A DNA stretch of 64,000 nt from a virus, in the IMG/VR virus record IMGVR_UViG_3300005533_000009, positions 1 to 64,000 of that record; one strand, 5' to 3'. Made by a program: the position numbers and the translations under genes. Shown here piece by piece: positions 2,901-48,711 of the stretch. The notes under the pieces are model-generated. The model did no database searches. It worked only from the letters and a program-made list of their open reading frames with translations, and was not told where the DNA came from. The first letter of the stretch is position 1. Each line of letters opens with the position of its first letter.

Positions 2901-3323
2901 CTAGAATTTCTTCCCACCGGGAAGCAAGCGGTTTTCAATTTTATGATCTTCACGCTTAGCGTTATACGCCATCTTTTCTACGTAAGCTCCACCAAGGTCG
3001 TAACCCATAGCTGCGGCATAGTCGAAGATACGAATCACAGCATCAGCCAGTTCCACTTCTGCCATCTTACGATGGGGAAGCTTATCGTCCATTAATTCTT
3101 TGCGCTCACCTTCCATAGCTTCAGCAATCTCTGAAACCATGAGCATGAGTTTTGTTCCCTTAAGTTCAAAATTGGATTTATCTAGTGGTTCTCCAGTGTT
3201 GATATTCTTCCACCATTTTTCATTTGCCTTATGAACTTCTCTAGCCATCTCATTAATTTGATCACGTCGATTGGTGTAAAACTCAACCATATCGTTGTAT
3301 TCTTTTTCTGTTAACTGAATCAC
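2901..3323 (-). CDS. MazG-like nucleotide pyrophosphohydrolase
   Basis: All-alpha NTP pyrophosphatase fold predicted from the metal-binding pattern: SEIAEAMEGERK (ExxxE-type helix, residues ~63-74) and later EVELADAVIRIFDYA (ExxD, residues ~88-102). MazG-like phage enzymes hydrolyse (d)NTPs or ppGpp-like nucleotides, and the exact substrate is unknown here. GTG start at 3323, overlapping the stop of the GMP reductase gene by 4 nt (translational coupling), with AGGAG upstream. It belongs to a nucleotide-supply operon with GuaC, RNR and DNA polymerase. Confidence 0.85.
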   Translation of the reverse strand: MIQLTEKEYNDMVEFYTNRRDQINEMAREVHKANEKWWKNINTGEPLDKSNFELKGTKLMLMVSEIAEAMEGERKELMDDKLPHRKMAEVELADAVIRIFDYAAAMGYDLGGAYVEKMAYNAKREDHKIENRLLPGGKKF

Positions 3324-4288
3324 TGAGTCCTATACTCCTTTAAGCTTTCATTTAGAATTCGTCTAACTTTTATGAACGTTGCACACTTGGGGAAGTCTTT
3401 AAGCTTCGTTGCACCGATATAGGCACCACAGCTTCTAAGGCCACCTTCAATTGTTTGTAAGGTTCCGTTAAGTCCTCCTCTTTTGGGAAGAACCAACTCA
3501 AAACCCTCAGAAGCCCGATAATCTTTGAGCCCACCAGAATTTGAAATATTTGCTCTCTCTGAGGATTCTCCGTAAAATTCGGAACCGTTTTCATCGTGTC
3601 CAGCAAGCATTCCTCCAAGCATTACAAAATCAGCACCAGCGCAAAATGCCTTAGCTACATCCCCCGGAGTAGTACAACCACCGTCAGACATAATATGCCC
3701 ACCCAAACCATGAGCAGCATCGGCACATTCAACAACTGCGGAGAACTGCGGGAAACCAACACCAGCCACACTACGAGTAGCACAAGCAGAACCGCTACCA
3801 ATACCAACTTTAACAATGTCTGCTCCTGATAGAATCAACTCTTGAGTCATCTCAGGGGTTACAACATTACCAGCGATAATTATAGAAAACTTTGCTTCTT
3901 CTCTAGTGCGCTTTACAAGATCAGCAAACCTTTCCATATAACCATTCGCCACATCTAAACAAATAATTCTTGGGAACAAAGATTCTCTAAAAGTGCTTAA
4001 GCCTTCCATGCCAAACGTGTTGATATAGTTTCTATTGACTGAAACTAAACTGAGATTTTTAGGCATACAAGCCAGCATACCTCTTTGATGCATAGTAGAG
4101 GCAGTTTCCCAGTTTGTAACACTGGACATGTTCGATGAAACTATGGGAATTCCACTCCAAGTTCCATAAGCATGTTTGAAATGGAATTCCCTTGTGATAT
4201 CTACTTCTTTTCTACTCGTTAGACTAGAACGATGTGGCACAAGCAACACATCCGAAAAATCTAACTTCTCTGAGTCAATTATTCTCAT
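3320..4288 (-). CDS. guaC: GMP reductase
   Basis: Converts GMP to IMP with NADPH, feeding purine pools. The protein is a TIM-barrel of the IMPDH/GMPR family. It lacks the CBS domains of most IMP dehydrogenases, is 322 residues long (E. coli GuaC is about 347), and has the GMPR-type loop [12 protein letters not shown] with the catalytic cysteine C169, followed by GVGFPQFSA and [20 protein letters not shown]. The start ATG overlaps the upstream HNH stop by 14 nt, and the stop overlaps the MazG start. GuaC is favoured over IMPDH on motif wording and length. Confidence 0.85.
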
Positions 4289-4826
4289 TTTTACTAATCA
4301 GTTGGCACCAAGTTATAAATTCTTCTTGATCCAAGTCTCTTTTTATATAGTTTACTGTTTTATGAACCCACTGAATATTGTTTAATATGTACCCCTTCGT
4401 AGAATCAATTCTATCTAAAGAAGCTGTAATTTTTGAATAATCAGGGTTGCACTTTTTCAAGTCACTAGAAAGCTGTATATCTACTCCAGACAAAGCACAT
4501 TTTCCATTTTGTTTAACAAATAGTTCCCACGCTTGTTCTATAGTGATATCAAATTCTATGTTTCTTTTCTGTGCTCCTTGACGTATGGCATACCAATAAG
4601 TTTTGGTAATATCTCCTACACCAAAATGAGCACGCTTAGCAAATACGGGATTTGGGTGATTTTTTAATGTCTCTTTAGCAGAACATGATTTACAAGAAGT
4701 ACTTCTACCAGTATCAACCCAGTCCGCTCTGCGAAAACCTATATACCCACACGAACATTGCACTTCATATTTTCTTCTCTTATCCTTGTACACTTCTTTA
4801 ATTATTTTCCATTTATTAGCTACCAC
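4275..4826 (-). CDS. HNH homing endonuclease between RNR and guaC
   Basis: Zinc module CSCGYIGF...CKSC near the N-terminus, then a long linker and the catalytic region GKCALSGVDIQ...ASLDRIDSTKGYILNNIQWVHKTVNYIKRDL, a variant HNH fold in which metal ligands are partly His/Asn. The open frame extends to 4865, but GTG at 4826 is preferred because AAAGGTGG precedes it, giving an 11-nt overlap with the RNR stop. Its own stop lies inside the first codons of guaC. Both ends are embedded in neighbouring coding sequence. Confidence 0.82.
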   Translation of the reverse strand: MVANKWKIIKEVYKDKRRKYEVQCSCGYIGFRRADWVDTGRSTSCKSCSAKETLKNHPNPVFAKRAHFGVGDITKTYWYAIRQGAQKRNIEFDITIEQAWELFVKQNGKCALSGVDIQLSSDLKKCNPDYSKITASLDRIDSTKGYILNNIQWVHKTVNYIKRDLDQEEFITWCQLISKNENN

Positions 4827-6471
4827 AAGGCCCACCTTTACCTGAGATGTCACAGATATCCCCACTCTCTATAAAAACTTCTCCAACATGTTTTGAGGCG
4901 GTTTTATAAGAAACAGTGTTTAATGGTTGTCCTGCTCTAGCTCCATCTGGATATGTTGTGATCCCTCTTAGTTTTGGCAAATATTTTATCAATATTTTTC
5001 CAAAATCTTGTACCGTATTTTTGTTGTTTAACTCACTGCCCCATGACGGTAAATTTAAAGTGGATGATATAGCATGGTCAACGTATTGTTGTACGTGTGC
5101 TTGAAAAGAGAGTCTACGCTCTGGATCAGCAGCCAGTGAGTATGCATCTTCTAATTGATCTGGGTTTAATCCATTGTCAACAAGATTTTTAGCTACAGGA
5201 TCAAGAACATACTGATAATGCCAAGTGTCCCCTTTAAGATATCTACGTTTATATGCAGAACAAAAAATAGGTTCAATACCAGAAGAAGTCTCTGCTACTA
5301 TCGAAATACTTCCTGTAGGTGCAATAGCTCTTGTTGCAACTGGTCTTGATAGTTCCCACTCGTCAGCATAAGCATTGGCATATTTTCCAGTAGTTTTATA
5401 AATTCCTAAATACTTGTCTAGTTCTTCATCTACTCCGTATCGTTTTCCACGAGACATCAAGAACTCGTGTATGCCCATTAATCCAAGCCCGAGACGACGA
5501 TTCTTAGTTCTAACTTGATCTACTTTCGGATAAGGCACATCGCTATAAACAGTGCCAGCCAAAAGGAAGGCAGTAGAACACTCAACCAACGCTCCCATCT
5601 CTTCAACAGAGCCCACACGCGCAAGGTTGATACTACCCAAATTACAGATATCGCTATCGTCAGCGGAAGTAATCTCAGTACAAGCATTTCTTAAAGTTTC
5701 CTTTGAATTCTTCCCAAGGTCTATGCTAAATCCGGGTTCACCTGTTTTAAGCATTCTTTCCACAGTAGCCCAGTACACATTTTGTGCCAAACTATTCTTG
5801 GGATGCTTGTCATTATGATATGCCGCAAAGAATTCATCATCTAAAAGAACACTTATGTTGGTCATATCCAGAGTAGCAGGGAAGCTAAAATCTTTTAACT
5901 TTAAATCTCTAACTTCTGGTATCCAGTTTTTTACTGTAATAAATTTAAAAATATCGGGATGCGACCAATTTAATCCTGCCCATATTGCTGAGCGTCCTTG
6001 TCCACCACGCATTACACCTCTACCGGATTCATTTACCATCTGCATTAGATATACAGGTCCAGTAGCATAATTTCCTGTACGTCTAACTAGTTTTCCTTCA
6101 CCACGTACCAAAGAGTAGTCTACTCCAATACCTGCTCCTGTCATAAGAGCATTAGTGGCTTTGGACATTAAATCCGCCCAGCCCTCTCTACTATCTTCGG
6201 CTCTTAATAACAAACAGTTTTGAGTTTGGTGATACGGCTTACCAACATTATGCAGGTACCTACCACCGGGAATAAACTTTCTCTCAATAATAAATTGCTC
6301 TACTTGATCAATAAGGGACTTTTTAGCATGGACCGATTTTAGAACTGCTCGTTGTCGTTTTGCTATCTCTTCCCAAGTTTCTTTTCTACCATCGCCAAGA
6401 TCATGACTATACTTCTGCTCCATCACTGTCTTTGAGAACGGCGACATTTTAGTAAAGTCTTTATAATTCAT
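4816..6471 (-). CDS. nrdJ: Class II (adenosylcobalamin-dependent) ribonucleotide reductase, compact
   Basis: Reduces ribonucleotides to deoxyribonucleotides through a B12-generated thiyl radical. The ten-stranded barrel residues are present: C86 in QNCLLL, the N262-C264-E266 set in RNACTEI, and C276 in DICNLGSINL. The redox-shuttle tail CDISGKGGPC has C540 and C549. No separate radical-generating subunit lies nearby, which supports class II. At 551 residues it is shorter than the roughly 700 of monomeric reductases. HNH genes overlap both ends (11 nt each). It supplies dNTPs without host ribonucleotide reductase. Confidence 0.85.
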   Translation of the reverse strand: MNYKDFTKMSPFSKTVMEQKYSHDLGDGRKETWEEIAKRQRAVLKSVHAKKSLIDQVEQFIIERKFIPGGRYLHNVGKPYHQTQNCLLLRAEDSREGWADLMSKATNALMTGAGIGVDYSLVRGEGKLVRRTGNYATGPVYLMQMVNESGRGVMRGGQGRSAIWAGLNWSHPDIFKFITVKNWIPEVRDLKLKDFSFPATLDMTNISVLLDDEFFAAYHNDKHPKNSLAQNVYWATVERMLKTGEPGFSIDLGKNSKETLRNACTEITSADDSDICNLGSINLARVGSVEEMGALVECSTAFLLAGTVYSDVPYPKVDQVRTKNRRLGLGLMGIHEFLMSRGKRYGVDEELDKYLGIYKTTGKYANAYADEWELSRPVATRAIAPTGSISIVAETSSGIEPIFCSAYKRRYLKGDTWHYQYVLDPVAKNLVDNGLNPDQLEDAYSLAADPERRLSFQAHVQQYVDHAISSTLNLPSWGSELNNKNTVQDFGKILIKYLPKLRGITTYPDGARAGQPLNTVSYKTASKHVGEVFIESGDICDISGKGGPCGS

Positions 6472-6982: not shown

Positions 6983-7133
6983 CTACCCTACTATCTCCAT
7001 CATCTCGGACATTTAATTCTCTTTCAATATAAAATCTGTGTTTGGCTGGGCACTCATATAAAACCAAAGAGTCCCGCTCACTCTTGATGTAAGACTGAGC
7101 GGGACAAAAAGGACATTGCAAATAGGTCGGCAT
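6963..7133 (-). CDS. Small zinc-ribbon protein (56 aa)
   Basis: Starts at ATG 7133 (MPTYLQCPFCP), one nucleotide past the polymerase stop, with TAAGGA upstream as ribosome-binding site. CPFC near the N-terminus and a later single ECPAKH give an incomplete zinc ribbon. No function is assigned. Its last 20 nt overlap the endonuclease VII-type gene. Confidence 0.6.
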   Translation of the reverse strand: MPTYLQCPFCPAQSYIKSERDSLVLYECPAKHRFYIERELNVRDDGDSRVDESKNL

Positions 7134-7134
7134 G

Positions 7135-9615
7135 TTATTCCTTAACCCAACGATTCGATACATGACCATCGAATTCCATTACCACTTTATGCATTACTTC
7201 GGCAGCAGCGCGTTTAAACGCTTCTCCTACCATTTGCTTAACCGCTTCTCCATTTCGCTTTGGGCACTGGATGATCAATTCATCATGCACCATGCTCAAT
7301 AGCTTTGCTTGTAGAGAAGGAAGAGTATGCCACAAATAAGGACGACCTTCTTTATCAATCCCTGCACCCATAGCACGCTTAATGATACTAGCGTTCGTGC
7401 CTTGAATACGATGGTTCTTTCCACGTCTTGCGATAGAACCCATCAAGGCTTTTATTCCCCAGAAAATCTCTTGCTGATTTGGGGCTCTGTGAGTGAGGTT
7501 GAATTCTTCTTCTTTTGTCGGCTTTCTTAAATTAACAGCTTTGAATTCTTCAATGTTTAATTCTTGTTCTTCTTCAGGCAAAGCTAGCTTTTCTGGATGC
7601 TCTTCCATGATCCAGCGAGAAGCCACTTCGGGAGTAGGAGTAGGAAATGCTCTTCTACGTCCGTACATATCTCTTGCTTCTTTATCAGCTTTTGCTTGTT
7701 CTCCTGAACGCTCCAAGAAATTCCACACATCAGGAAATGCTGCTCTGTGCTGTGACATTAATTCTTTAGCTGCATTGACAGTGATATTCAATTCGTCGGC
7801 CAAAGCATCAGGCCCACCACCGTAACACAACAAGAAGTTAATAGCCTTCGTGTTCTCTCTCAGCTTCTTATGTTCTTTACAAGAACACTTCAACCTCATA
7901 GGTTGACCGTCAGCACCTAACTTGAAATATTTACAACCTTCCTCAGTTCCCGCTTTCCACTTTTCTCTTTCAAGAATTTCAGTAGAAACTGAGTGAACGT
8001 CCCAGCCTTTATTAAAGGCCATGATCCAAGTTTTAGCGTCGGCTAGGTCAGCGATAATACGAAGTTCAGCACCAGACATGTCCACCGTGACAATACAAAA
8101 CTCTTCCCCTGTAATAGGGTCTGGTGGATCACATATAAAACAATCTCTTACTTCTTTTTCTCTTGGAAGATTCTGCCCATTTGGTTTGGATGAAGAACTT
8201 CGTCCAGTTTCTGCCTCTAGTTGGTTAAATACACAGTGCAGTCTTCCATCGCCGGGATGTCTCCAGCCTTCTTCTTTGCAAGGCTTGGTAACCCAGCGGT
8301 TGATCCATGACATTCCGTAGGTAGAAGTGCTTTTCTTGCCCTTCTTGTATTTACGTAATGTCTGAATAACTTCTTTATCGTTGTAGTGCAGCAATTCTTC
8401 ATCAGAAGTGCTCTTCAACGCTTTCATGCCGGGAAGTTTTTGAAGTGCTTCTAAAAGCTGTGTAGAGGAATCATAATTGATGTATGCCTCGCCTTCACAC
8501 TTCTCGACATTTCTGGCCCACTTTGTTTTTAGTTTGTTCTTCTCACTAAAATTGGAACGGGCTTCTGCTTTCTTGATGCGTCTAAACAACTCAAGATTTT
8601 TTAGTACTTTCTTTAGTTCTGATTTTTTCTCTTTGTCTTTTTCAGCGCGTACTAAAGCGGCCTGAGCTTTTTCTTCTGGAGTTGCTTCTTCAAACTGAGT
8701 CTTCCAGATCATCTCCAAACGGTGAAGTTCTTCTTCATCCACTTGGGAATTTTTATGACCCACAATTGGTAAGAACGCTTGATCCAAAAGCTTTATTTCT
8801 TCAATTCTTTTCTCTTCTAACGCTTTAATTCTCTCAACCCATTTTGTATCGTCAAGGTTTTGTCCATTGAGATGCATGTCTACGTAACTACCGATTGCAT
8901 CATTTTCAATTTGGGTTGTTACTAACAACTGTTCTTTTACCAGACGCTTCATCTGTGCGTCTCGCATAGGAATTGGCAGCCTGCTATCTAGAGCCGCATA
9001 TGCAATCTGTTTGTCTGTCAAACGGTTGACAAGATCAAAACCACGCTGCTCGTCTTTATCAACAATCAAACCAAAGTAGCGTTTTACAATCGCTACCATG
9101 GAGAACTCACTGTATTGTTTTAAAGAGATTGTTCCGGCTTGAATAACACGCTCGGCAAGATCGGTACTGTACAAGTGCCAAATACGCAGGCCGAAGTTCC
9201 AACGCATCACTTCATATTCGAAGGAAAGGTTCTGCCCTACTTTTAAGAATTCATTATTGCAGAGGATGGGCTCAATAATTTCTAGAAGCTCTTTGTAATG
9301 CTCCCCGTTGTTTACTCCGTAGTTCCCCTGCGTGTCTATCAACAAATCTGTGTCCCAATCAAGTAGACCCAGAATATCAACTACGAACTGTTCGAACTTG
9401 TCACCAAACTGCATGGTGCGAACGCGACGGTTCCAAAAGTCCACAGTCCAATTTGTTTCCGTATCAAATCCGACAAATAGACTTTTATTTTTTCGCTTGC
9501 GTTCAAAGAAGTCTTTCAAAAGGTACAGATCACTCTTCTTGTCGATGAAGGTGATCTTCATTGGTGGTTGAAGCTCTTCCATCACCAATGGTTTAAAGCT
9601 AGAGTTATCTGACAT
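7135..9615 (-). CDS. Family A DNA polymerase (PolA-like, 3'-5' exonuclease plus polymerase)
   Basis: Replicative polymerase of 826 residues. The N-terminal DnaQ-like proofreading domain has FVGFDTETNW (D51, E53). The polymerase palm has motif A TVDMSGAELR (D512), motif B in the fingers RENTKAINFLLCYGGG (residues ~588-603) and motif C MVHDEL (D778). No 5' nuclease domain precedes the exonuclease, as in phage polymerases generally. The start ATG 9615 has AAGGAAAG upstream, after a GACTCAG heptamer. It heads the replication and nucleotide genes, behind one small leader gene. Confidence 0.93.
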   Translation of the reverse strand: MSDNSSFKPLVMEELQPPMKITFIDKKSDLYLLKDFFERKRKNKSLFVGFDTETNWTVDFWNRRVRTMQFGDKFEQFVVDILGLLDWDTDLLIDTQGNYGVNNGEHYKELLEIIEPILCNNEFLKVGQNLSFEYEVMRWNFGLRIWHLYSTDLAERVIQAGTISLKQYSEFSMVAIVKRYFGLIVDKDEQRGFDLVNRLTDKQIAYAALDSRLPIPMRDAQMKRLVKEQLLVTTQIENDAIGSYVDMHLNGQNLDDTKWVERIKALEEKRIEEIKLLDQAFLPIVGHKNSQVDEEELHRLEMIWKTQFEEATPEEKAQAALVRAEKDKEKKSELKKVLKNLELFRRIKKAEARSNFSEKNKLKTKWARNVEKCEGEAYINYDSSTQLLEALQKLPGMKALKSTSDEELLHYNDKEVIQTLRKYKKGKKSTSTYGMSWINRWVTKPCKEEGWRHPGDGRLHCVFNQLEAETGRSSSSKPNGQNLPREKEVRDCFICDPPDPITGEEFCIVTVDMSGAELRIIADLADAKTWIMAFNKGWDVHSVSTEILEREKWKAGTEEGCKYFKLGADGQPMRLKCSCKEHKKLRENTKAINFLLCYGGGPDALADELNITVNAAKELMSQHRAAFPDVWNFLERSGEQAKADKEARDMYGRRRAFPTPTPEVASRWIMEEHPEKLALPEEEQELNIEEFKAVNLRKPTKEEEFNLTHRAPNQQEIFWGIKALMGSIARRGKNHRIQGTNASIIKRAMGAGIDKEGRPYLWHTLPSLQAKLLSMVHDELIIQCPKRNGEAVKQMVGEAFKRAAAEVMHKVVMEFDGHVSNRWVKE

Positions 9616-9644
9616 CTTTCCTTTCTGAGTCTAAAGGGCTACAA

Positions 9645-9908
9645 TCAGTATACACCAGTTGCAAACCTGTGATTGAAGAACTCCGTATTCCTGCCCTCTG
9701 ACTGTATGCCCTCATTGCGAGAGGAGTATTCTAGAGCAGCATTTAATTTGGAGAGAGCTTCTTTATACTGACTCATGTTCTCTATATACTCTTTAGAATC
9801 AACATGATACTTACTCTTTGTCTCTATTATCTTTGACTCTATCTCTATTATTCTATTCCTAAGTCTCTGTCTTTTCTTAGATATAGAGGGACTAGTCTTC
9901 TTCATCAA
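9645..9908 (-). CDS. Small coiled-coil protein (87 aa), first gene of the leftward operon
   Basis: Charged, alpha-helical sequence with heptad-like spacing over residues ~10-62 and no recognised domain. It is the first gene after the leftward promoter at 10067-10095, so it should be expressed early. Positions like this often hold small regulators or host-takeover proteins, but nothing in the sequence shows that. Confidence 0.55.
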   Translation of the reverse strand: MMKKTSPSISKKRQRLRNRIIEIESKIIETKSKYHVDSKEYIENMSQYKEALSKLNAALEYSSRNEGIQSEGRNTEFFNHRFATGVY

Positions 9909-9922
9909 TACCTACCTTATAC

Positions 9923-10018
9923 TAAGTTGTTTATTATCAACACTTTATACTAATTACCACTCCTAAACCACTGAGCACCTAGTACTTATCTACTATACTA
10001 CTGATAATAAACAACTTA
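9923..10018. repeat. 16-bp perfect inverted repeat in the leftward leader
   Basis: TAAGTTGTTTATTATC at 9923-9938 is matched exactly by its reverse complement at 10003-10018, with 64 nt between. It lies between the predicted leftward start (~10060) and the first leftward gene, so the transcript could form a long stem-loop. As DNA it could also be a protein-binding or origin element. Confidence 0.8.
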
Positions 10019-10066
10019 AATACTATAGTATCTAATACATATGTGCCGGGGGAGAATCTATTTTCA

Positions 10067-10095
10067 ATAGTAGCATGTGATTTTGCAATTGTCAA
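10067..10095 (-). promoter_or_regulatory. Sigma70-type promoter, leftward
   Basis: On the minus strand, a perfect -35 TTGACA (10090-10095), a 17-nt spacer and a -10 TACTAT (10067-10072). Transcription should start near 10060 and run into the coiled-coil and DNA polymerase genes. Confidence 0.8.
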
Positions 10096-10153
10096 CTTTT
10101 TAACTATTTTCTTTATTTTCATACAGATACAAAGAATATATGAAAAACAGTAA

Positions 10154-10170
10154 TTGAAAATCATTTTCAA
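10154..10170. promoter_or_regulatory. 17-bp palindrome, candidate operator
   Basis: TTGAAAAT C ATTTTCAA is a perfect 8+1+8 palindrome, midway between the divergent promoters. Its half-site resembles the nearby TATTTTCA repeats. It is a typical size for a dimeric repressor site. Confidence 0.5.
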
Positions 10171-10272
10171 GATGGTGCAAGTCTTTTATTTTCATAAATA
10201 TATAAGGACGATTTTTTAGAATTTATTTTGAGTGTGATTTTTCATGTTATTTTAATTTGTTTAAAACTGATC

Positions 10273-10291
10273 TGCCCCAGACTCTGGGGCA
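10273..10291. promoter_or_regulatory. 19-bp GC-rich palindrome, candidate operator or attenuator
   Basis: TGCCCCAGA C TCTGGGGCA is perfect, 30 bp upstream of the rightward -35 box, in otherwise very AT-rich DNA. With no poly-U after it, a binding site is more likely than a terminator. Confidence 0.5.
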
Positions 10292-10321
10292 CATAGTTAA
10301 AATTTATTTTCATTCACCCCC

Positions 10322-10349
10322 TTGACAAATGGATTTCCGGGTTTATTAT
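10322..10349 (+). promoter_or_regulatory. Sigma70-type promoter, rightward, placing the start at or near the ATG
   Basis: Perfect -35 TTGACA (10322-10327), 16-nt spacer, -10 TATTAT (10344-10349). The next gene starts at 10356, only 7 nt past the -10 box, so the transcript would be leaderless or nearly so. Confidence 0.75.
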
Positions 10350-10355
10350 TAAAGT

Positions 10356-10997
10356 ATGGAGAAGAACCAATTTACTCCCGAGGAATACAAAGCCCGTAGA
10401 CAAGAGATAAAAGAGCTTATTGAAAGCGGTGCTTCTCTCTCGGATATAGCAAGAAAATTTTCAATTTCACGAGAACGTGTACGACAATTGAATCATTCAC
10501 TAGGATTGCCCACCAAAAGAAGTTTGGTTGCTCAATATAAAGAAAAAGCTTTAGCTTTAATAAAAAGCAAAGAACTTCATGATACAGAAGTAGCTGATAT
10601 GACAGGATTATCCCCCACTACTGTAGGGTATATAAGAAAAAGAGACTTGGGTATTGACTCTATTGTAATTCGTAAAACTTTAAAACGACAATATCCAGCA
10701 GAGTTTAATGCGTATAGGATGGCTGAAAAAAGGTGTCAAGATAAGGACCACCCAAATTATAGTAGTTATGGTGGTAGAGGAATCCAGTTTAAATTTACAT
10801 CTTTTGGTGAATTTATGGCGGAATTGGGTCCAAAGCCTGCTGGAATAACACCTTCTGGAAGATCAGCATATAGCTTGAATCGCATTGATAACAATGGACA
10901 TTACGAAATAGGTAATGTGGAATGGACAACACAAGATGTACAATGTAGGAACAGAAGAAAACGGGTATTGACAAATTTAAAAAAATTACCCTATTGA
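10356..10997 (+). CDS. HTH-HNH fusion: sigma region 4-like DNA-binding domain plus HNH endonuclease
   Basis: 213 residues. The N-terminal ~110 residues contain helix-turn-helix elements: SLSDIARKFSISRERVRQL (residues ~28-46) resembles sigma70 region 4.2, and DTEVADMTGLSPTTVGYIRK (~76-95) looks like a second one. The C-terminal half is a complete HNH domain: AYRMAEKRCQ, YSSYGGRGIQF, LNRIDNNGHYEIGNVEWTT. It is the first rightward gene, behind a strong promoter. It could be a HEG that borrowed a DNA-binding domain, or a HEG that also regulates the control region. Confidence 0.88.
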   Translation: MEKNQFTPEEYKARRQEIKELIESGASLSDIARKFSISRERVRQLNHSLGLPTKRSLVAQYKEKALALIKSKELHDTEVADMTGLSPTTVGYIRKRDLGIDSIVIRKTLKRQYPAEFNAYRMAEKRCQDKDHPNYSSYGGRGIQFKFTSFGEFMAELGPKPAGITPSGRSAYSLNRIDNNGHYEIGNVEWTTQDVQCRNRRKRVLTNLKKLPY

Positions 10998-11030
10998 TTT
11001 TCTCTATGAGTATGGTAATATTGAATCAGC

Positions 11031-11120
11031 CCTAAATAGGGCTTGCATTGTTCGACATTCATGGGGGACGTGCCTATTAACTCCTTTCTCGCGCATATCG
11101 TCCCCCATTTCGATTTTTGT
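11031..11120 (+). terminator. Hairpin cluster and probable terminator
   Basis: A small hairpin (AGCCC/GGGCT near 11034-11049) is followed by a 10-bp perfect stem, ATGGGGGACG (11061-11070) with CGTCCCCCAT (11099-11108), and then a T-rich tail. It sits after the HTH-HNH gene. The 28-nt loop is long for a terminator, so another RNA role is possible. Confidence 0.5.
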
Positions 11121-11181
11121 TGTATTCTTTCTGCGGCTGTGGCATCCTGTATGTGTAAGTCCAACCCGAGATACGACATTT

Positions 11182-11226
11182 AAACCTGTGGTCCCCTCTG
11201 CAACATTTGACAGAGGGGCAAGGTTT
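11182..11226 (+). promoter_or_regulatory. Two-tier hairpin upstream of an HNH gene
   Basis: An 8-bp stem CCCCTCTG (11193-11200)/CAGAGGGG (11211-11218) is nested inside AAACCT (11182-11187)/AGGTTT (11221-11226), 8 nt before the start codon at 11235. The rest of 10998-11234 shows no coding frame. Confidence 0.55.
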
Positions 11227-11234
11227 GTGCCAAA

Positions 11235-11753
11235 ATGACATATAGTTTTGAATTTGCGTCTGTGGATGGAATGAGACTAAAATATACTAAAGAAATTTTA
11301 GAGCCTGTAGTTAAAGAAAGTTTGTCTATGGCTCAGGTACTTAGAAAATTAGGAAAGAGACAATCTGGTGGGAATCACTTTCATGTGAAGAAGGTGATCG
11401 AAAAACTTGGAATTGATACGTCTCATTTTACAGGCAAATTATGGAATAAAGGAAAGACGCTTCCTTGTGTTAATCCAGAAGATATTCTGGTTTTGAGAAG
11501 CTATGATGATCCTAGAACACATGGTAAATCCTTAGAAAAAGCGTTAATATCTATTGGAAGAAAATACCAATGTGTTGACTGTGGCTTAGGAAATACATAT
11601 AACGACAAACCTATTAAGTTACAAGTAGATCATGAGAACGGTAAGTTTTGGGATAACAGAGAAGAAAATTTAAATTTTAGATGTCCAAATTGCCATTCTC
11701 AAACGAATAATTTTAGTGGTAGAAGTAGTAATAGTGCGCTTATGGTGGAATAA
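11235..11753 (+). CDS. HNH homing endonuclease upstream of tRNA-Leu
   Basis: 172 residues. The C-terminal third is a canonical zinc HNH domain: CVDCGLGNTYN, LQVDHENGKFWDNREENL and FRCPNCHSQTNNF. The N-terminal part has a short helical region resembling a DNA-recognition HTH (SMAQVLRKLGKR, residues ~31-42). The stop codon (11751-11753) lies 18 nt inside tRNA-Leu, repeating the HEG-on-tRNA arrangement seen elsewhere in this genome. Confidence 0.9.
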   Translation: MTYSFEFASVDGMRLKYTKEILEPVVKESLSMAQVLRKLGKRQSGGNHFHVKKVIEKLGIDTSHFTGKLWNKGKTLPCVNPEDILVLRSYDDPRTHGKSLEKALISIGRKYQCVDCGLGNTYNDKPIKLQVDHENGKFWDNREENLNFRCPNCHSQTNNFSGRSSNSALMVE

Positions 11754-11821
11754 GCAGACACGTAAGGTTTAGACCCTTATGGTGAATAACCGTGGGAGTG
11801 CAAGTCTCTCTAGGCGCACCA
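11736..11821 (+). tRNA. tRNA-Leu(UAG)
   Basis: 86 nt with long variable arm and encoded CCA. Acceptor GCGCTTA/TAGGCGC, anticodon stem TAAGG/CCTTA with loop TTTAGAC, T arm GGGAG/CTCTC with loop TGCAAGT. Its first 18 nt overlap the preceding HNH gene. Confidence 0.9.
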
Positions 11822-11828
11822 AATTTTT

Positions 11829-11902
11829 GGATGTGTAGTTCAGTGGCAGAACACAATCTTGGTAAGATTGCAACGAAGGTTCGATTCCTTCCTAATCCTC
11901 CA
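11829..11902 (+). tRNA. tRNA-Thr(GGU)
   Basis: 74 nt, CCA encoded, loop TTGGTAA in stem CAATC/GATTG, T arm GAAGG/CCTTC. The acceptor has mismatches at positions 5:68 (G-A) and 6:67 (T-T). Confidence 0.8.
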
Positions 11903-11903
11903 T

Positions 11904-11978
11904 GCGCTCGTGGCTCAATGGCACAGCAGCGGTTTTGTAAACCGCCATTTCTCAGTTCGACTCTGAGCGTGCGCTCCA
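11904..11978 (+). tRNA. tRNA-Thr(UGU)
   Basis: 75 nt, CCA encoded, anticodon stem GCGGT/ACCGC with loop TTTGTAA, T arm CTCAG/CTGAG. One acceptor mismatch at position 5 (T-T). Confidence 0.88.
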
Positions 11979-11985
11979 AATTGTA

Positions 11986-12013
11986 ACAAAACCCCCTTTT
12001 GTGAGGGGTTTTG
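11986..12013 (+). terminator. Hairpin between tRNA genes
   Basis: CAAAACCCC pairs with GGGGTTTTG across a short loop. The stem is strong but no U-run follows, so it may be an attenuator or a processing signal rather than a full terminator. Confidence 0.45.
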
Positions 12014-12025
12014 ATGAAATAAAAT

Positions 12026-12100
12026 GCGCTTGTAATTTAATGGCGAGAATACCTCTTTCGTAAAGAGGCTGTGAAGGTCCGAATCCTTCCTTGCGCTCCA
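12026..12100 (+). tRNA. tRNA-Thr(CGU)
   Basis: 75 nt, CCA encoded, anticodon stem CCTCT/AGAGG with loop TTCGTAA, T arm GAAGG/CCTTC. Acceptor positions 5 and 6 are T-T mismatches. It is the third threonine isoacceptor in a row. Confidence 0.82.
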
Positions 12101-12177
12101 GTTTTGGGTGGGTGTAGACTATAAAGCCCTTCAAAATAGTGGTGCTTTCGTCTAACCACAGCCCAATAAATTTTTAT

Positions 12178-12253
12178 ACTCTGGTAGATTAGCGGCTAAA
12201 TCATCTGCCCTACAAGCAGACTACCGTAGGTTCGAGTCCTACCCGGAGTACCA
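12178..12253 (+). tRNA. tRNA-Val(UAC) with C33
   Basis: 76 nt, CCA encoded, acceptor ACTCTGG/CCGGAGT, anticodon stem TCTGC/GCAGA, T-loop TTCGAGT. The anticodon loop is CCTACAA, so the nearly universal U33 is a C. Confidence 0.85.
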
Positions 12254-12259
12254 ATTTAT

Positions 12260-12371
12260 CCTAAGTCCTCATACGTACACAATAAGTTTAATATTGACTT
12301 ATTGTGATTAGTAAATTAGACTGTGCTAATGAGGCTGCTAAGATCAGAGGTAATGCTCCCGAATACTTAGG
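12260..12371 (+). ncRNA. Structured RNA of unknown function inside the tRNA array
   Basis: A 112-nt unit closed by CCTAAGT (12260-12266)/ACTTAGG (12365-12371). Directly inside, CCTCAT pairs with ATGAGG, which encloses two further hairpins: CACAATAAGT/ACTTATTGTG (10 bp) and ATTAG/CTAAT. It has no anticodon arm or T arm. It is not a tRNA I can recognise and may be a novel small RNA. Confidence 0.55.
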
Positions 12372-12409
12372 GTCTAACCAATTAAGTGCGTGAATAATCC
12401 GCATAGACT

Positions 12410-12489
12410 GTGACGATGGCAACTATGAGAATGTTGCGGCAGACTGTGAACCTGTCCTCTTGTCGGAGCATCCCCGACTCGTCACCCCA
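12410..12489 (+). tRNA. tRNA-His(GUG)-like, unusual T and D loops
   Basis: Acceptor GTGACGA/TCGTCAC is perfect, followed by C73 and an encoded CCA. C73 is a histidine identity base. The anticodon loop is CTGTGAA (GUG). The D arm (GCAAC/GTTGC) and the T arm (GTCGG/CCGAC) pair, but the T-loop is AGCATCC instead of the TTCRANN consensus, A31-C39 mismatches, and no G precedes G1. It may be divergent or decayed. Confidence 0.6.
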
Positions 12490-12493
12490 TTAT

Positions 12494-12570
12494 GTACGTT
12501 TGGCGAAGTGGCTAAACGCGAACGGCTGCAACCCGTTTAAGCGTAGGTTCGAATCCTACAACGTACTCCA
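12494..12570 (+). tRNA. tRNA-Cys(GCA)
   Basis: 77 nt, CCA encoded, perfect acceptor GTACGTT/AACGTAC, anticodon stem AACGG/CCGTT with loop CTGCAAC, T arm GTAGG/CCTAC with loop TTCGAAT. Confidence 0.93.
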
Positions 12571-12579
12571 TTTTTACTG

Positions 12580-12635
12580 GCGGTTCGTTTAACAGAAACG
12601 TTTGAGGACGAGTTCAATTCTCGTACTTCGCTCCA
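12580..12635 (+). pseudogene. Truncated tRNA-like sequence
   Basis: Only 56 nt. A T arm ACGAG/CTCGT with loop TTCAATT, an acceptor-like 3' end and CCA are present, with one hairpin (CGTTT/AAACG) in place of separate D and anticodon arms. It is likely a tRNA that lost about 20 nt. Confidence 0.6.
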
Positions 12636-12637
12636 AA

Positions 12638-12713
12638 GCGAGGCTGGTGTTCAACAGCAGCATGTGAGTCTTCCAAACTCAGGGAAAGGGTGCAAGTCCC
12701 TTGCTTCGCTCCA
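12638..12713 (+). tRNA. tRNA-Gly(UCC)
   Basis: 76 nt, CCA encoded, acceptor GCGAGGC/GCTTCGC, anticodon stem TGAGT/ACTCA with loop CTTCCAA, T arm AAGGG/CCCTT with loop TGCAAGT. Confidence 0.9.
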
Positions 12714-12716
12714 AAT

Positions 12717-12792
12717 AGGTCATTGGTCTAACGGCTATGATATCCGCCTCCAAAGCGGTAAGGTGTGGGTTCGAATCCTGCATGACCTGCCA
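12717..12792 (+). tRNA. tRNA-Trp(CCA)
   Basis: 76 nt, CCA encoded, perfect acceptor AGGTCAT/ATGACCT, discriminator G, anticodon loop CTCCAAA in stem CCGC/GCGG. Confidence 0.92.
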
Positions 12793-12843
12793 AAGTTTCT
12801 CCAAACTTAAAATGGAGTGGTCGAAAAGTGTTCTTAACCGGGC

Positions 12844-12878
12844 TACTACTATTTATACTCTGAGAAAGAGAAGTAGTA
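12844..12878 (+). promoter_or_regulatory. Hairpin covering the start of an HNH gene
   Basis: TACTACT (12844-12850) pairs with AGTAGTA (12872-12878), which ends directly before the ATG at 12879 and flanks the GAGAAG ribosome-binding site. It could hide the start from ribosomes. Confidence 0.5.
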
Positions 12879-13220
12879 ATGCCTTTAGCAACAAAAGAAT
12901 TACAGTCTGAGTATCAAAAGAAACATTATCGTTGGAATAAAGAAAGATATTTACAACGTAATATTGATAGAAGAAATAAATACAGACAAATAATACAAGA
13001 AGCCAAAGAAAATAAACCTTGCACTGATTGTGGAGTTTGTTACCACCCAGTAGCCATGGACTTTCACCATGTATTTCCAGCAGAGAAATCTTTTGAAATT
13101 TCTGATGCATGTAGAATAGCTTCTTCAGAAAAAGTTTTGAAGAATGAGATAGCAAAATGCATAATTTTATGTTCTAATTGCCATCGCATTCGAGAATTTA
13201 ATCTGTGTGTAGGATCGTAA
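12879..13220 (+). CDS. Small HNH homing endonuclease upstream of tRNA-Pro
   Basis: 113 residues. A basic helical N-terminus precedes the zinc HNH core: CTDCGVCYHPVAMDFHH (first zinc pair and catalytic His), then IILCSNCHRIREF. The stop codon (13218-13220) falls inside the downstream class II tRNA, an 18-nt overlap identical in length to that of the HNH gene on tRNA-Leu. Confidence 0.88.
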   Translation: MPLATKELQSEYQKKHYRWNKERYLQRNIDRRNKYRQIIQEAKENKPCTDCGVCYHPVAMDFHHVFPAEKSFEISDACRIASSEKVLKNEIAKCIILCSNCHRIREFNLCVGS

Positions 13221-13291
13221 ATAGCAGCGAGCCTCCCTTGGAAGGAGGTGTCAGTATGACCTTGGAGGTGCAAGTCCTCCCACGCAGACCA
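13203..13291 (+). tRNA. Class II tRNA with UGG anticodon (nominally Pro)
   Basis: 89 nt, CCA encoded, acceptor CTGTGTG/CACGCAG, anticodon stem CCTCC/GGAGG with loop CTTGGAA, T arm GGAGG/CCTCC with loop TGCAAGT. A 15-nt variable region forms GTCA/TGAC, which is not expected of tRNA-Pro. Identity is uncertain. Confidence 0.75.
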
Positions 13292-13304
13292 TTTTGATTG
13301 TACA

Positions 13305-13373
13305 GTAGGACCATCTAAGCTATCATCCTACCAACGGTGCTGAAGTGCGCTTGAGAGTGATGGATAATGCACT
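13305..13373 (+). ncRNA. Two-hairpin structured spacer
   Basis: GTAGGA (13305-13310)/TCCTAC (13326-13331) and AGTGC (13344-13348)/GCACT (13369-13373). No cloverleaf or coding frame is visible. It may be tRNA remnant or processing signal. Confidence 0.35.
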
Positions 13374-13384
13374 GCGAATTTAAA

Positions 13385-13462
13385 GGTCTTTTAGGGGAGT
13401 CTGGAGTCCCCGGCTCTCTGTCTAAGAGCAGATCATGGGTTCAAATCCCATACGGTTCGCCA
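13385..13462 (+). tRNA. tRNA-Asp(GUC)-like with poor acceptor stem
   Basis: The anticodon stem GCTCT/AGAGC with loop CTGTCTA, the T arm ATGGG/CCCAT with loop TTCAAAT, G73 and CCA fit tRNA-Asp. A GGGGA/TCCCC D arm is present. The upstream sequence pairs with the 3' acceptor strand at only about four of seven positions, so the 5' end or the function is uncertain. Confidence 0.6.
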
Positions 13463-13469
13463 ATTTTAT

Positions 13470-13544
13470 TGCTGATTAGTTCAGTGGCAGAACGCCGCGC
13501 TCATAACGCGAATGTCGAAGGTTCGATTCCCTCATCAGCGACCA
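13470..13544 (+). tRNA. tRNA-Met(CAU) copy 1
   Basis: 75 nt, CCA encoded, acceptor TGCTGAT/ATCAGCG, D stem GTTC/GAAC, anticodon stem CGCG/CGCG with loop CTCATAA. It could be elongator Met, or Ile if C34 is modified to lysidine. Confidence 0.85.
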
Positions 13545-13547
13545 TAT

Positions 13548-13619
13548 TGCGGGGTAGTGTAGTAGAGCATCAAAGCCTCATAAGCTCTGGGACCAGTGCA
13601 ACTCTGGCGACCGCAACCA
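13548..13619 (+). tRNA. tRNA with CAU anticodon, copy 2, mismatched acceptor
   Basis: 72 nt, CCA encoded, anticodon loop CTCATAA, T-loop TGCAACT. The acceptor pairs at five positions (TGCGG/CCGCA) with mismatches at 6 and 7. It may be Ile2 or a decaying Met gene. Confidence 0.65.
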
Positions 13620-13705
13620 TATTAACCCCACTAAAAACGTCCATGCCGAAAAATACGGGCGTTGACTCAGATACTTCGGCAATCCCTCTTCCCCAGAGGT
13701 CACCG

Positions 13706-14716
13706 ATGCAAAGAATACTATTTATCACTAAGAAAGGGCAGAAGTATTCTGAGGAATATGGGTATACTCACTGCTCAAGCGGATTAAAAAATTCAGCAAG
13801 GTTCGTAGTAGATATGCTACGAGCTAACGGCGTTGATGCAAAGTTAGTAGATGTTATTGACAATAATGATATTGACAGGGAAGTATTTAAGTTTAAACCT
13901 GATATAGTGATAATTGAAGCTCTTTGGGTAATTCCAGAAAAATTTAGCATTTTAAAAAAACTTCATCCCAAGGTTAAATGGGTAGTAAGAATACATAGCG
14001 AGGTTCCTTTTCTAGCTACTGAAGGTATTGCTATAAAATGGATTATAGAGTATTTAAGAAAGAACGTATTTGTTGCTTTTAATTCCCTTCGTGCTCAGTT
14101 TGAGTTTATGGAATTAACCAAGTCAGATAAAATCATTTATCTGCCTAACTTTTTTCCAACACACGATGTTAAAAAAAATAAAAAGCGCACATCTGACCAT
14201 ATTTTGAATGTGGGATGCTTTGGCGCAATTAGACCAATGAAAAATCAGCTTATGCAAGCCTTGGCAGCTATCCGATATGCCGAATTGCATGATAAATTTT
14301 TGGTATTTCACATAAATGCTTCTCGTGTAGAACAAAACGGTGAACCTGTGCTAGAAAATATTAGGGCACTATTTAAATACACTCCTAACACTTTTTTGGT
14401 AGAACATTCATGGTTAAATCAAAAGAATTTTCATGATTTACTACAAACCATGGATTTGAACATGTGTGTATCGTTAAGTGAAACGTTTTGTATTGTAGCA
14501 GCCGAATCGGTTGCACTGAATGTTCCTTTAGTATGCTCAGAAGAAGTTCATTGGGCTAACAAGATATCGAAGGCCGATCCTACTAGTATGAACAGCATAG
14601 TAAACCGAATAGAAGCTGTGTTGAATAATAAGATGTATGCAAACTTTATCAACAAGTACAACTTGAATAAATACGATAAGAAAAGTATTAATACATGGTT
14701 ACAGTTTGTAAAGTAA
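13706..14716 (+). CDS. Glycosyltransferase, GT-B fold (GT4-like)
   Basis: 336 residues from ATG 13706, chosen for the AGAGGT site just upstream. The longer open frame runs back through the tRNA genes and is not real. The C-terminal nucleotide-sugar site resembles family 4: LSETFCIVAAESVALNVPLV carries the E-x7-E type pattern. The N-terminal Rossmann part starts RILFITKKG. The acceptor is unknown. It is embedded in the tRNA array, away from the main sugar island. Confidence 0.75.
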   Translation: MQRILFITKKGQKYSEEYGYTHCSSGLKNSARFVVDMLRANGVDAKLVDVIDNNDIDREVFKFKPDIVIIEALWVIPEKFSILKKLHPKVKWVVRIHSEVPFLATEGIAIKWIIEYLRKNVFVAFNSLRAQFEFMELTKSDKIIYLPNFFPTHDVKKNKKRTSDHILNVGCFGAIRPMKNQLMQALAAIRYAELHDKFLVFHINASRVEQNGEPVLENIRALFKYTPNTFLVEHSWLNQKNFHDLLQTMDLNMCVSLSETFCIVAAESVALNVPLVCSEEVHWANKISKADPTSMNSIVNRIEAVLNNKMYANFINKYNLNKYDKKSINTWLQFVK

Positions 14717-14727
14717 AATTTTAATGT

Positions 14728-14802
14728 GGGCGATTAGTTTATTCAGGAAAACTCTCGGTTTGCACCCGAGGGAGGGCGGAGCGTAGCCGCCATTGTCCAC
14801 CA
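14728..14802 (+). tRNA. tRNA-Ala(UGC), unusual T-loop
   Basis: 75 nt, CCA encoded, acceptor GGGCGAT/ATTGTCC, anticodon stem CTCGG/CCGAG with loop TTTGCAC. The T stem GGCGG/CCGCC is solid but its loop is AGCGTAG, not TTCRANN. Confidence 0.75.
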
Positions 14803-14823
14803 AAATTTGTTGATTGGAAAACC

Positions 14824-14860
14824 GCCTCAGGGAGACTAAAAATCTCCTTGGGGCTTTTTT
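14824..14860 (+). terminator. Strong rho-independent terminator after the tRNA array
   Basis: A 12-bp stem starting GCCTCAGGGAGA, a 7-nt loop and a run of six T. It separates the tRNA unit from the packaging genes. Confidence 0.9.
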
Positions 14861-14922
14861 ATTGCTTGACTCAGACCCACCTTGCTCGAAAGTCTATGAC
14901 GGTGAGCTTGGAGAGTCCATGC

Positions 14923-15267
14923 GTGAAATCGGATTATAAATTAAAAAAGCTGTATAGAGAACTTAACGAAAAATACTTTGATAATTCCCTACCAGATTTA
15001 CAAGTAGCCTTCTTTTCTCCAGAACATTTCAAACAAAAGAAATGGGGTGGAAAAATGACTGTGGCTGCAACAGAATTTCACGATAACAAGCCAGCAATAG
15101 TAGCTCTAAAAAAGCAAAAAGAAAATTGTTATACCGATATAAAACTGTCTTTATTACATGAGATGATCCATGTTAAGACGGGCATTATAAATTGCGAAAA
15201 AAGCAAAAAGTTTAAGAAAGAGATTCGTAGGCTTGCCGCAGAGGGAGCTTTCGACGACGTACTATAA
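14923..15267 (+). CDS. SprT-like zinc metalloprotease
   Basis: 114 residues from GTG 14923, preferred because GGAGAG lies 9 nt upstream. ATG 14896 in the same frame has a weaker site. The opening YKLKKLYRELNEKYFDNSLP and the HEMIH zinc motif in LLHEMIHVKTG are typical of SprT/spartan-like proteases. It has no C-terminal zinc ribbon, so only the catalytic half is present. Confidence 0.75.
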   Translation: MKSDYKLKKLYRELNEKYFDNSLPDLQVAFFSPEHFKQKKWGGKMTVAATEFHDNKPAIVALKKQKENCYTDIKLSLLHEMIHVKTGIINCEKSKKFKKEIRRLAAEGAFDDVL

Positions 15268-15285
15268 GACTCAGGAGACTAAAAT

Positions 15286-15627
15286 ATGTCAGTTGTTGAA
15301 GAAGTAAAAGCAGAAGTGGAAAAAGTTGTAGAAGAAGTTAAGAAAGTTGAAGATCGTGTTCGAATTGATCTTGAAGATGGTGAAAAGTTTGTTGTTACTA
15401 AACTAGAAAATGACTTCTTGAAGGCACAAGTAGAACTACAACAAATTGAAGCTCGTGCAAAGCACTTGAGAGAAGTGGCTCAGAACGTTTCCAAGGCTTA
15501 CACTACAAAGCTAGAAGAATTGGCAAAGAAATATGAAATCAGCTTGAAAGAATTCTTCTACAATGCCGTAGAAACTGCTTTTATGAAGAATCAGACCCCA
15601 CCTCCACAACCTCCAGCACAGGGATAA
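15286..15627 (+). CDS. Coiled-coil hypothetical protein
   Basis: 113 residues, highly charged and helical through residue ~95, ending in a proline-rich tail. Start chosen by CAGGAG upstream. It lies directly before the terminase genes. Unknown function, possibly an internal or packaging accessory protein. Confidence 0.65.
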   Translation: MSVVEEVKAEVEKVVEEVKKVEDRVRIDLEDGEKFVVTKLENDFLKAQVELQQIEARAKHLREVAQNVSKAYTTKLEELAKKYEISLKEFFYNAVETAFMKNQTPPPQPPAQG

Positions 15628-15630
15628 GCA

Positions 15631-16149
15631 ATGGAAGAAGACGTAAAGACGGAAGCGACTCCTCCTACGCCCACAGCTATCGTCATACGTAACAGAGATG
15701 GAAAGATTAGAACTGGGCTTAGAGACGAAGCGGGAAAATTTGTTAGAACCAAACCAAGATCAGTGCCAGATAGTAGAGAAATCAAAAAAGTAGGCAGAAA
15801 ATTCCTGATGGAGTATGAAGCCGATGAATCTGGTAAGATCACAAAGCGTTCTAAGACAAGACTCAGAAAGATAGTAGACACTGCTTATAAGCACGCCACG
15901 TATGATGGTGAAGATGCCAAGATGGTAGGTGCAGCTAAGCAGTGGGCGGATTGGTTAATGCTCTACTTTGTTGGAAAACCCGGCCCTATGGATGAAGACA
16001 GAGAAGAAAAGGGGCAGGGCATACAATTTGTTATTGGTATGATGCCAGAATTACCTAACAAAGAAGTTATTGACGAGCATGTTCCACCTTCAAAACCTAC
16101 TTTTGCTAAAGTAGTTTCAGTGGAGACTAATCCAGTAAATAAGGAATGA
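15631..16149 (+). CDS. Candidate terminase small subunit
   Basis: 172 residues, basic middle (KRSKTRLRKI) and acidic N-terminus. There is no motif that proves TerS. The call rests on size and on lying one nucleotide upstream of the large-subunit gene, where TerS usually is. It would recognise the packaging site and load TerL. Confidence 0.45.
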   Translation: MEEDVKTEATPPTPTAIVIRNRDGKIRTGLRDEAGKFVRTKPRSVPDSREIKKVGRKFLMEYEADESGKITKRSKTRLRKIVDTAYKHATYDGEDAKMVGAAKQWADWLMLYFVGKPGPMDEDREEKGQGIQFVIGMMPELPNKEVIDEHVPPSKPTFAKVVSVETNPVNKE

Positions 16150-29467: not shown

Positions 29468-29502
29468 TTTTAAATAACTTAGATGTGTTTTTGATTGTGA
29501 AA

Positions 29503-42677: not shown

Positions 42678-43278
42678 AATATTTGAAAAATCAGGACTAA
42701 ATGATCCTTTGCGAGAAACTTGGTTACCTGATGCAGTTAAACTGGGCATGGATTATAAGTTCTTTCATGGAGCAGGCTCTACAGAAAAAGAAGATGTAGT
42801 TGTTCTGCCAGTAGATGATTCTTTAGGTGGATTGACCGAGAAGGCCAAAGCAAAGGCGAAATGGATGGTGGATAATGGCTATGATTATGCTTTTTCATGT
42901 TTCCCCGATACTTACGCTTGTGCTATTCGCCTCTATAATAGCGATTACGCTAAGTATGACTACTACGGTCGCATACATCAGCACGTTGGCGGTCCTCCGT
43001 ATTGCCAAGGCGGTCCCGGTTATTTTCTCAGTCGTAAAGCGTGCGAAAGAATTTATCAAAATCCGACTAGCTACTTAAATGATGACTGTTGGATTGGTGA
43101 CGTTTTAAATGTACCAGATATAAAAAGAGGACACTCAGACGACTTCACATATGTCGGTCCCGGCCCTCTAGTTGGGAACACTTCTATTACAAATCATCTT
43201 TCTACTCAGCCGGGAGGATTTACTCCCGAGGGGATGAGGGCAGAGCACCAAAGATGGCTAGGATCGTATGATTATTGA
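42646..43278 (+). CDS. Glycosyltransferase, GT31-like paralogue
   Basis: 210 residues. Begins [15 protein letters not shown] and keeps the RETWLPDA...YKFFHGAG opening of the paralogues at 36709 and 46899, but the central acidic triad is replaced by SCFPDTY. It may use a different donor or be less active. Overlaps fcl by 32 nt and the GIY-YIG gene by 11 nt. Confidence 0.55.
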   Translation: MKILISISSCEIFEKSGLNDPLRETWLPDAVKLGMDYKFFHGAGSTEKEDVVVLPVDDSLGGLTEKAKAKAKWMVDNGYDYAFSCFPDTYACAIRLYNSDYAKYDYYGRIHQHVGGPPYCQGGPGYFLSRKACERIYQNPTSYLNDDCWIGDVLNVPDIKRGHSDDFTYVGPGPLVGNTSITNHLSTQPGGFTPEGMRAEHQRWLGSYDY

Positions 43279-44708: not shown

Positions 44709-44716
44709 CGACTCAG

Positions 44717-48626: not shown

Positions 48627-48643
48627 GTTATAGAAAACAAAGA

Positions 48644-48711
48644 ACTTAGGAGTAATTACCCTGAGTAGAGTTGGGCGGTACTCATAATGCCGCCCTTCTC
48701 GCCTTTATGAG
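48644..48711 (+). promoter_or_regulatory. HEG leader pseudoknot, copy 7
   Basis: Hairpin 1 ACTTAGG (48644-48650)/CCTGAGT (48660-48666), loop AGTAATTAC. Hairpin 2 is 8 bp (48673-48680/48688-48695) with loop CTCATAA. TTATGAG at 48705-48711 complements it, next to GAGAGGA. Confidence 0.85.

Follow-up and report, generated by a model that had tools for sequence, protein, structure and literature searches.

In the window, the whole stretch of 64,000 nucleotides that was analysed, the gap at positions 9909–10355 (28.4% G+C) contains two promoters facing away from each other, and the 17-bp inverted repeat and two of the three copies of TTTATTTTCAT found there are parts of one degenerate 25-bp pseudo-palindrome, approximately TAASTYNTTGAWWMTAAANRASTTA. 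The window belongs to an IMG/VR virus record (G000) with a length of 81,268 bases. The data support the gap as the main divergence point of this record, with two sigma70-type promoters back to back. As judged from the sequence, we consider the chances about even that it acts as the main divergent switch with a leftward promoter shaped by a host IHF-like bending protein.

Divergent promoters and neighbouring genes

The leftward promoter, TTGACA-17-TACTAT (10067–10095, minus strand), agrees with the consensus at 10 of 12 positions and carries TG before the second box (extended -10). The rightward promoter, TTGACA-16-TATTAT (10322–10349, plus strand), agrees at 11 of 12 positions. The corresponding transcription starts are expected near 10060 and 10356, respectively, the latter at the ATG of an ORF encoding an HTH-HNH protein. 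Since the -10 box ends at 10349 and this ATG lies at 10356 (window 10344–10358), the HTH-HNH message would be leaderless if the rightward promoter is used. The leftward promoter faces a small ORF and the DNA polymerase gene. The small ORF is basic (9645–9905, minus strand, ATG at 9905), similar ORFs were recognised by eye in L003–L006, and it is situated between the leader and the family A DNA polymerase gene (7135–9615, minus strand), with which the large genes of the leftward block begin.

The upstream regions of 24 of 63 polymerase loci were examined together with that of the window, and the removal of the duplicates L022 and L069 left 23 non-duplicate regions, window included. With a loose -10 test (3 or 4 of 6 positions), the rightward TTGAC-type promoter was present in 19 of the 23 regions compared to 5.5% of dinucleotide shuffles of the same regions, and the leftward promoter in 21 compared to 8.1%. 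Both promoters together were found in 18 of the 23 regions upstream of related polymerase genes, and in 0.26% of the shuffles. The number of promoter-like matches in a 3-kb scan was at the chance level (9 vs 8.1 ± 2.9 in shuffles), with three matches reaching at least 10/12 of the consensus, both promoters of the gap among them. Despite this count, both promoters are credible because they are conserved in relatives, and the pair proposed in an earlier note on this DNA is thus confirmed with high confidence.

After the removal of overlaps, 66 of the 67 ORFs of at least 150 amino acids in the record run away from 9909–10355. The proposal of a main early switch therefore holds as regards the main divergence point, given this ORF arrangement and the conserved pair; its use would presumably be early. 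Shortly after the expected leftward start, a CCGGGGG box (10046–10052, plus strand) gives the C-rich CCCCCGGCA in the transcript, and a C-rich box near the start is common to several leftward leaders of relatives. The folding of the leader RNA was no better than that of shuffles in the window (z -0.69) or in the L003 leader (z 0.14), and a leader RNA element was rejected on these grounds.

The contig L002 (in G023) is identical to the window across the compared stretch, which covers the control region, the polymerase and tRNA, and L003 is the closest relative after it. The named relatives are Tunturi_3 and Tunturi_4, with which the polymerase is shared at about 40%; closer relatives are present in IMG/VR. 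Window 7000–16000 had no near DNA match in the named phage records, and no relative was obtained from a scan of genome contigs with the polymerase alignment.

The HTH-HNH protein (10356–10997, plus strand) had been considered the only candidate for a repressor, but found no support in this role. In L003, blastn gave no match to the gene, and tRNA-Leu is the first recognisable gene downstream of the rightward promoter; the C-terminal half of the protein is an HNH endonuclease. Repressor families of PHROG were matched weakly by the HTH half (E 2e-5 and 3e-4), and L006 has a similar ORF in the corresponding position (by eye). Because blastn gave no match in L003 and matches are found at other places in G007 and G008, the gene is read as a mobile one, probably for a mobile endonuclease.

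Genes for nucleotide metabolism were observed in the leftward block (window 2901–3323, 3320–4288 and 4816–6471; L011 11653–12129 and 14241–14795). The types comprise pyrophosphatase-like, IMP dehydrogenase, ribonucleotide reductase, deoxyribosyltransferase and YfbR-like genes, the last below the cut-off, and they might serve nucleotide-pool remodelling or modified bases. The tRNA islands are located at 404–1183 and 11736–14802 of the window (15 tRNAs in the window) and at 214–7103 of L003 (26 in the L003 stretch). All 13 Rfam matches at gathering scores were tRNAs.

The 25-bp element and its placement

The inverted repeat, described earlier as 16 bp long, is real and perfect, and its length was determined to be 17 bp. 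The arms, 9923–9939 and 10002–10018, are 62 nt apart; a 17-bp repeat occurred in none of 1000 dinucleotide shuffles of the region, in which the largest was 15 bp. The three copies of the 11-mer TTTATTTTCAT are present at 10112, 10185 and 10303 with one further copy in the 81-kb record at 58925, and only 2 of 1000 shuffles held any 11-mer at least three times. Both of the reported palindromes were also found, but their rarity differed. The dyad TGCCCCAGA-c-TCTGGGGCA with 9-bp arms (10273–10291) was matched in 7 of 1000 shuffles, whereas the 12-bp palindrome ATACTATAGTAT (10020–10031) was equalled in 204 and is ordinary. The dyad, TGCCCCAGACTCTGGGGCA, lies between the promoters and scans as a terminator-like hairpin on the minus strand; no such dyad was seen on reading the L003 region.

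The 8-mers ACAACTTA and AAGGACTT were enriched in the 25 upstream regions with 13 and 12 occurrences, respectively, compared to 0.7 expected for each, and the largest count for any 8-mer across 100 shuffles was 12. The pseudo-palindrome of 25 bp was obtained by expectation-maximisation. Scanning was performed with an oriented 29-bp matrix from whose training the window was left out; this leave-one-out procedure is not fully blind, since the seed of the matrix was a consensus taken by eye from the same regions. At 18 bits or more, the matrix detected six sites in the 81-kb record and none in 8 shuffles, and five of the six are clustered within 422 bp (9783–10204).

Two of the clustered sites are located upstream of the leftward promoter. 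The site at 10176–10204 (minus strand, 22.3 bits) is centred at about -130 and contains the second copy of TTTATTTTCAT, and the site at 10103–10131 (minus strand, 19.7 bits), centred at about -57 against the -35 box, contains the first. In the leader, the site at 9992–10020 (plus strand, 19.1 bits, about +54) contains the right arm of the inverted repeat and the site at 9921–9949 (minus strand, 20.4 bits, about +125) the left arm. The arms thus fall in two separate elements and the two copies of TTTATTTTCAT in two more, while the third copy (10303) scored below 13 bits. The fifth site (9783–9811, minus strand, 18.2 bits, about +263) is inside the small ORF. The sixth is an outlying one at 48622–48650 (plus strand, 27.1 bits), in which TAA at 48624–48626 is the stop of the ORF 48228–48626. 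The earlier note contains neither of the last two. The exact sequence YAANNNNTTGATW occurs in one of the six sites, 9921–9949. With high confidence, a single element family explains the repeats which had been described separately.

In other records, 5 sites of at least 18 bits were determined in G011, 3 in G003, 2 each in G012 and G008, 1 in G007 and none in the closest relative, G001. An unsymmetrical G...A core was kept in 44 of the 49 sites of at least 14 bits, and the element is therefore not simply a hairpin, as this core breaks its symmetry.

The outlying copy at window 48622–48650 precedes an endonuclease VII-like gene (48721–49206). Outlying copies overlapping a stop codon were also seen at G001 797–825, G012 28980–29008 and G008 107051–107079 (the last by eye). 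In these three records the stop is that of a conserved gene homologous to window 28302–29207, which has no PHROG match and is perhaps a capsid gene. The window's own version of this conserved gene has a weak copy at the equivalent position (29455–29483, 13.7 bits; below 13 bits in leave-one-out). By eye, the homologue in G008 seems to be broken close to its 3' end (107100–107328), and group-I-intron-like text follows the same gene in G012 (28988–29412).

The placing of the elements relative to the leftward start was compared in 18 of the 23 regions, in 17 of which a leftward promoter was assigned. L025, L027, L030, L060 and L067 were dropped, as these regions look otherwise organised. The placing recurs among the relatives. 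Sites near both -98 and -56 were detected in L013 (-99, -55), L021 (-100, -57) and L046 (-99, -55), and the -98 position alone was occupied in L016 (-98), L020 (-98) and L028 (-97). The window and L065 have a site at -57, and L014 has sites at -88 and -45. In the leader, a pair at +68 and +111 was present in L016, L018, L020 and L021, and within 1 bp of these positions in L014 and L028, so that the spacing of 42–43 bp, i.e. four helical turns, is kept in six relatives. The phases vary, however, and the window has its sites at -130, -57, +54, +125 and +263. Eight of the 17 loci lacked a site of at least 11 bits within 10 bp of -56 or -98. Among these, L018, L024, L063, L017, L023 and L026 had no upstream site at all, and in L015 and L061 the upstream site was at -68 and -67, respectively.

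Distribution of the element and its candidate binding proteins

With up to three mismatches, the element pattern gave 24 rows in 13 of 30 phage records, corresponding to 21 places, one of which is common to G000 and G023; the reversed-pattern controls gave none. The Tunturi_3 and Tunturi_4 records had no match at this threshold. Among viral contigs, exact matches were found in 105 stretches, and a change of one base in the core lowered this number to 7; the core of the element cannot be changed freely. Exact matches were obtained also in 109 stretches of GTDB genomes; the core-change control covers the viral contigs. In eight bacterial genomes, each chosen for having an exact match, 2–11 rows were detected with up to three mismatches in comparison with 0–2 for the reversed pattern. 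The highest number was that of Tunturiibacter, with 11 rows (9 places) against 0 reversed, two of them exact (L181 and L191). A literature search with short forms of the element letters gave no paper on a phage control region, as judged from titles and the beginnings of abstracts.

Some further features of the bacterial matches were seen. In Tunturiibacter, element-like sites at L181 3590–3730 and L191 4200–4330 are followed by a G-tract with GGTAATA/GTAATACC; this module, present twice in the genome, resembles by eye the CCGGGGG box of the phage leader. The element and its flanks are near-identical in L121, L136, L138, L166, L207, L208, L214 and L221, the first four of which belong to one Thiotrichaceae MAG. 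In L158, L169 and L199, the element is placed just 3' of an apparent tRNA gene (by eye).

In one of its halves, the element comes close to TAAnnnnTTGATW, the IHF consensus given in PMC10380432. The strict consensus occurs in one of the six window sites, and the element matrix agrees with it except for the T before W, where A has a frequency of 0.57 vs 0.40 for T. The matrix was also applied to phages Mu and lambda. In Mu, IHF has its site between the repressor gene and ner, and this c/ner gap ranked first in the Mu scan (933–961, 18.3 bits; next 12.8). In lambda, the IHF places are H1, H2 and H' of attP and the stretch upstream of pL; H' ranked 7, upstream of pL 9, H1 13 and H2 19, and the six matches above H' are not known to be IHF sites. 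With reversed matrices, the lambda places ranked 113–206 and the Mu gap 3. Of 200 column-shuffled matrices, the rank was equalled by 1 for H1, 4 for H', 17 for pL, 18 for Mu and 62 for H2. Against altered matrices, the ranking is thus supported for H1 and H', less so for Mu and pL, and not for H2; the matrix ranks the Mu and lambda IHF places well, but not uniquely.

DNABII (HU/IHF) genes were found in none of 18 phage records, whereas a DNABII match was present in all 11 bacterial genomes searched, so an IHF-like binder would be supplied by the host. Tunturiibacter has three DNABII genes. The best DNABII proteins of Tunturiibacter and Acidicapsa scored 106 and 110 bits, respectively, with the IHF-beta family TIGR00988 (cut-off 120), compared to 73 and 79 bits with the alpha family TIGR00987. 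The G041 protein, with 101 and 97 bits, favoured neither beta nor alpha clearly, and one Vibrio had both IHF-beta and alpha matches above the cut-offs. A homodimer of an IHF-beta-like protein would suit the more palindromic site. The identification of an IHF-like protein as the probable binder of the elements is held with moderate confidence.

A bolder extension, which we regard as possible but rather doubtful, is that Acidobacteriota and other phyla possess a homodimeric IHF-beta-like protein with a palindromic operator of its own, TAASTYNTTGAWWMTAAANRASTTA, which serves at some chromosomal origins. Soil phages would have taken over this operator and flanked their main leftward promoter on either side with pairs of bends spaced by about 43 bp, so that the promoter is wrapped into a host-controlled switch.

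It is unlikely that the sites are instead operators of a phage-encoded regulator, such as the ParB-like protein of the clade, that would keep the two promoters either off or on. Near-palindromic sites flanking a promoter are classic operator anatomy, a ParB-N protein was detected in 7 of 24 records, G023 included, and in the more distant Tunturi_4 two annotated transcriptional repressor genes adjoin the polymerase gene (L009 7849–8419). However, matches to the element occur in G014, G019, G021, G025, G027 and G029, records that may be fragments and have no ParB-like match, which weakens this protein as the binder, and also in bacterial genomes. The ParB-like protein matched no HTH family, nor, with Pfam, did 20 further proteins of the record, a part of its proteome. 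A scan of viruses with the ParB-like protein returned its own contig only. The ParB-N-domain protein itself (G001 43269–44759, and in six further records) carries a long charged tail, and no HTH was recognised in it.

A similarly low probability was assigned to the gap being the replication origin of the phage, with the elements as iterons or as bending sites for an initiator complex. The AT-rich gap is beside the DNA polymerase gene, and the cumulative GC-skew minimum was at or near the divergence in 6 of 7 records; in G003, taken as linear, the minimum was at position 91 and the sign changed near 100 kb. At four-fold degenerate sites of codirectional genes, however, the skew ranged from -0.15 to +0.04 in six records, without a skew of the expected sign in five and at +0.04 in one. 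As these sites do not follow the skew, its minimum mostly reflects gene direction. The coding-strand four-fold skew of the head-on ORFs (n = 26) was -0.163 (C excess) vs -0.044 for codirectional ones. Seven of the 26 have homologues in other records, and their value was -0.256; four of these seven stand at the convergence boundary. The difference would be compatible with a small contribution of replication, or with unusual genes. The DnaA box TTWTNCACA was absent from the window region and present in 3 of 18 regions. About 10 of the 109 GTDB stretches with exact matches are beside dnaA, dnaN, gidA/gidB or parA (by eye), and a dnaA neighbour was verified by PF00308 in L339, L340, L348 and L354, and more weakly in L359. 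Against this, 17 of 24 dnaA loci had no site of 15 bits, the five strongest came from stretches chosen for their match, and the dnaA regions of Tunturiibacter and Acidicapsa had no such site. The placing of the elements follows the promoter start, and the origin suggested in the earlier note was left unsupported.

A third alternative is that the repeats have no specific protein and arose incidentally as AT-rich hairpins or terminators. The 28% G+C of the region and the many intergenic, often perfectly dyadic bacterial matches (the core-change control being viral only) would favour it, but it is very improbable in the light of the drop from 105 to 7 viral stretches on a one-base core change, the unsymmetrical core and the shuffle-level folding of the leader RNA.

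A putative IHF-type control of the leftward promoter

In the preferred reading, that of a divergent switch with IHF-type bending, one promoter would serve the leftward replication and nucleotide block with the small ORF, the DNA polymerase and ribonucleotide reductase, and the other the rightward block of tRNA and structural genes. The repeats would form a single family of IHF-type (DNABII) sites, each a 25-bp pseudo-palindrome; the leftward promoter has two of them upstream and no fewer than two in its leader. A host-encoded IHF-like dimer would bend the DNA on both sides of this promoter and fold it into a compact complex, which may set the balance between the two promoters, by analogy with the action of IHF in the control region of phage Mu. 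Confidence in the direction of such control is low.

The region is a variant of known phage control regions and not a new kind. According to PMC3820752, Mu carries a specific IHF site, and transcription from Pe is affected by IHF. The early control region of Mu is alike in that an IHF-like site lies in the gap between divergent promoters, "IHF-like" referring here to the sequence only. In contrast to Mu, which has a repressor gene beside the gap and one site in it, no conserved repressor was found next to the present gap and five sites were determined. The lambda IHF sites share a TAAnnnnTTGAT-like core, but the soil-phage element is longer and more palindromic. The stoperators of mycobacteriophages, described in PMC9283540 as numerous and distributed across the phage genome, are likewise repeated short sites in a phage control region. 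They are spread over the genome, whereas here five of the six sites form one cluster.

Features of the gap which looked separate are thereby brought together into one testable family of sites common to many uncultured soil viruses. The reading points to a host protein as the probable controller of the main switch in phages for which no regulation data were found. If the palindromic IHF-type site holds, it would offer a handle on DNABII specificity outside Proteobacteria.
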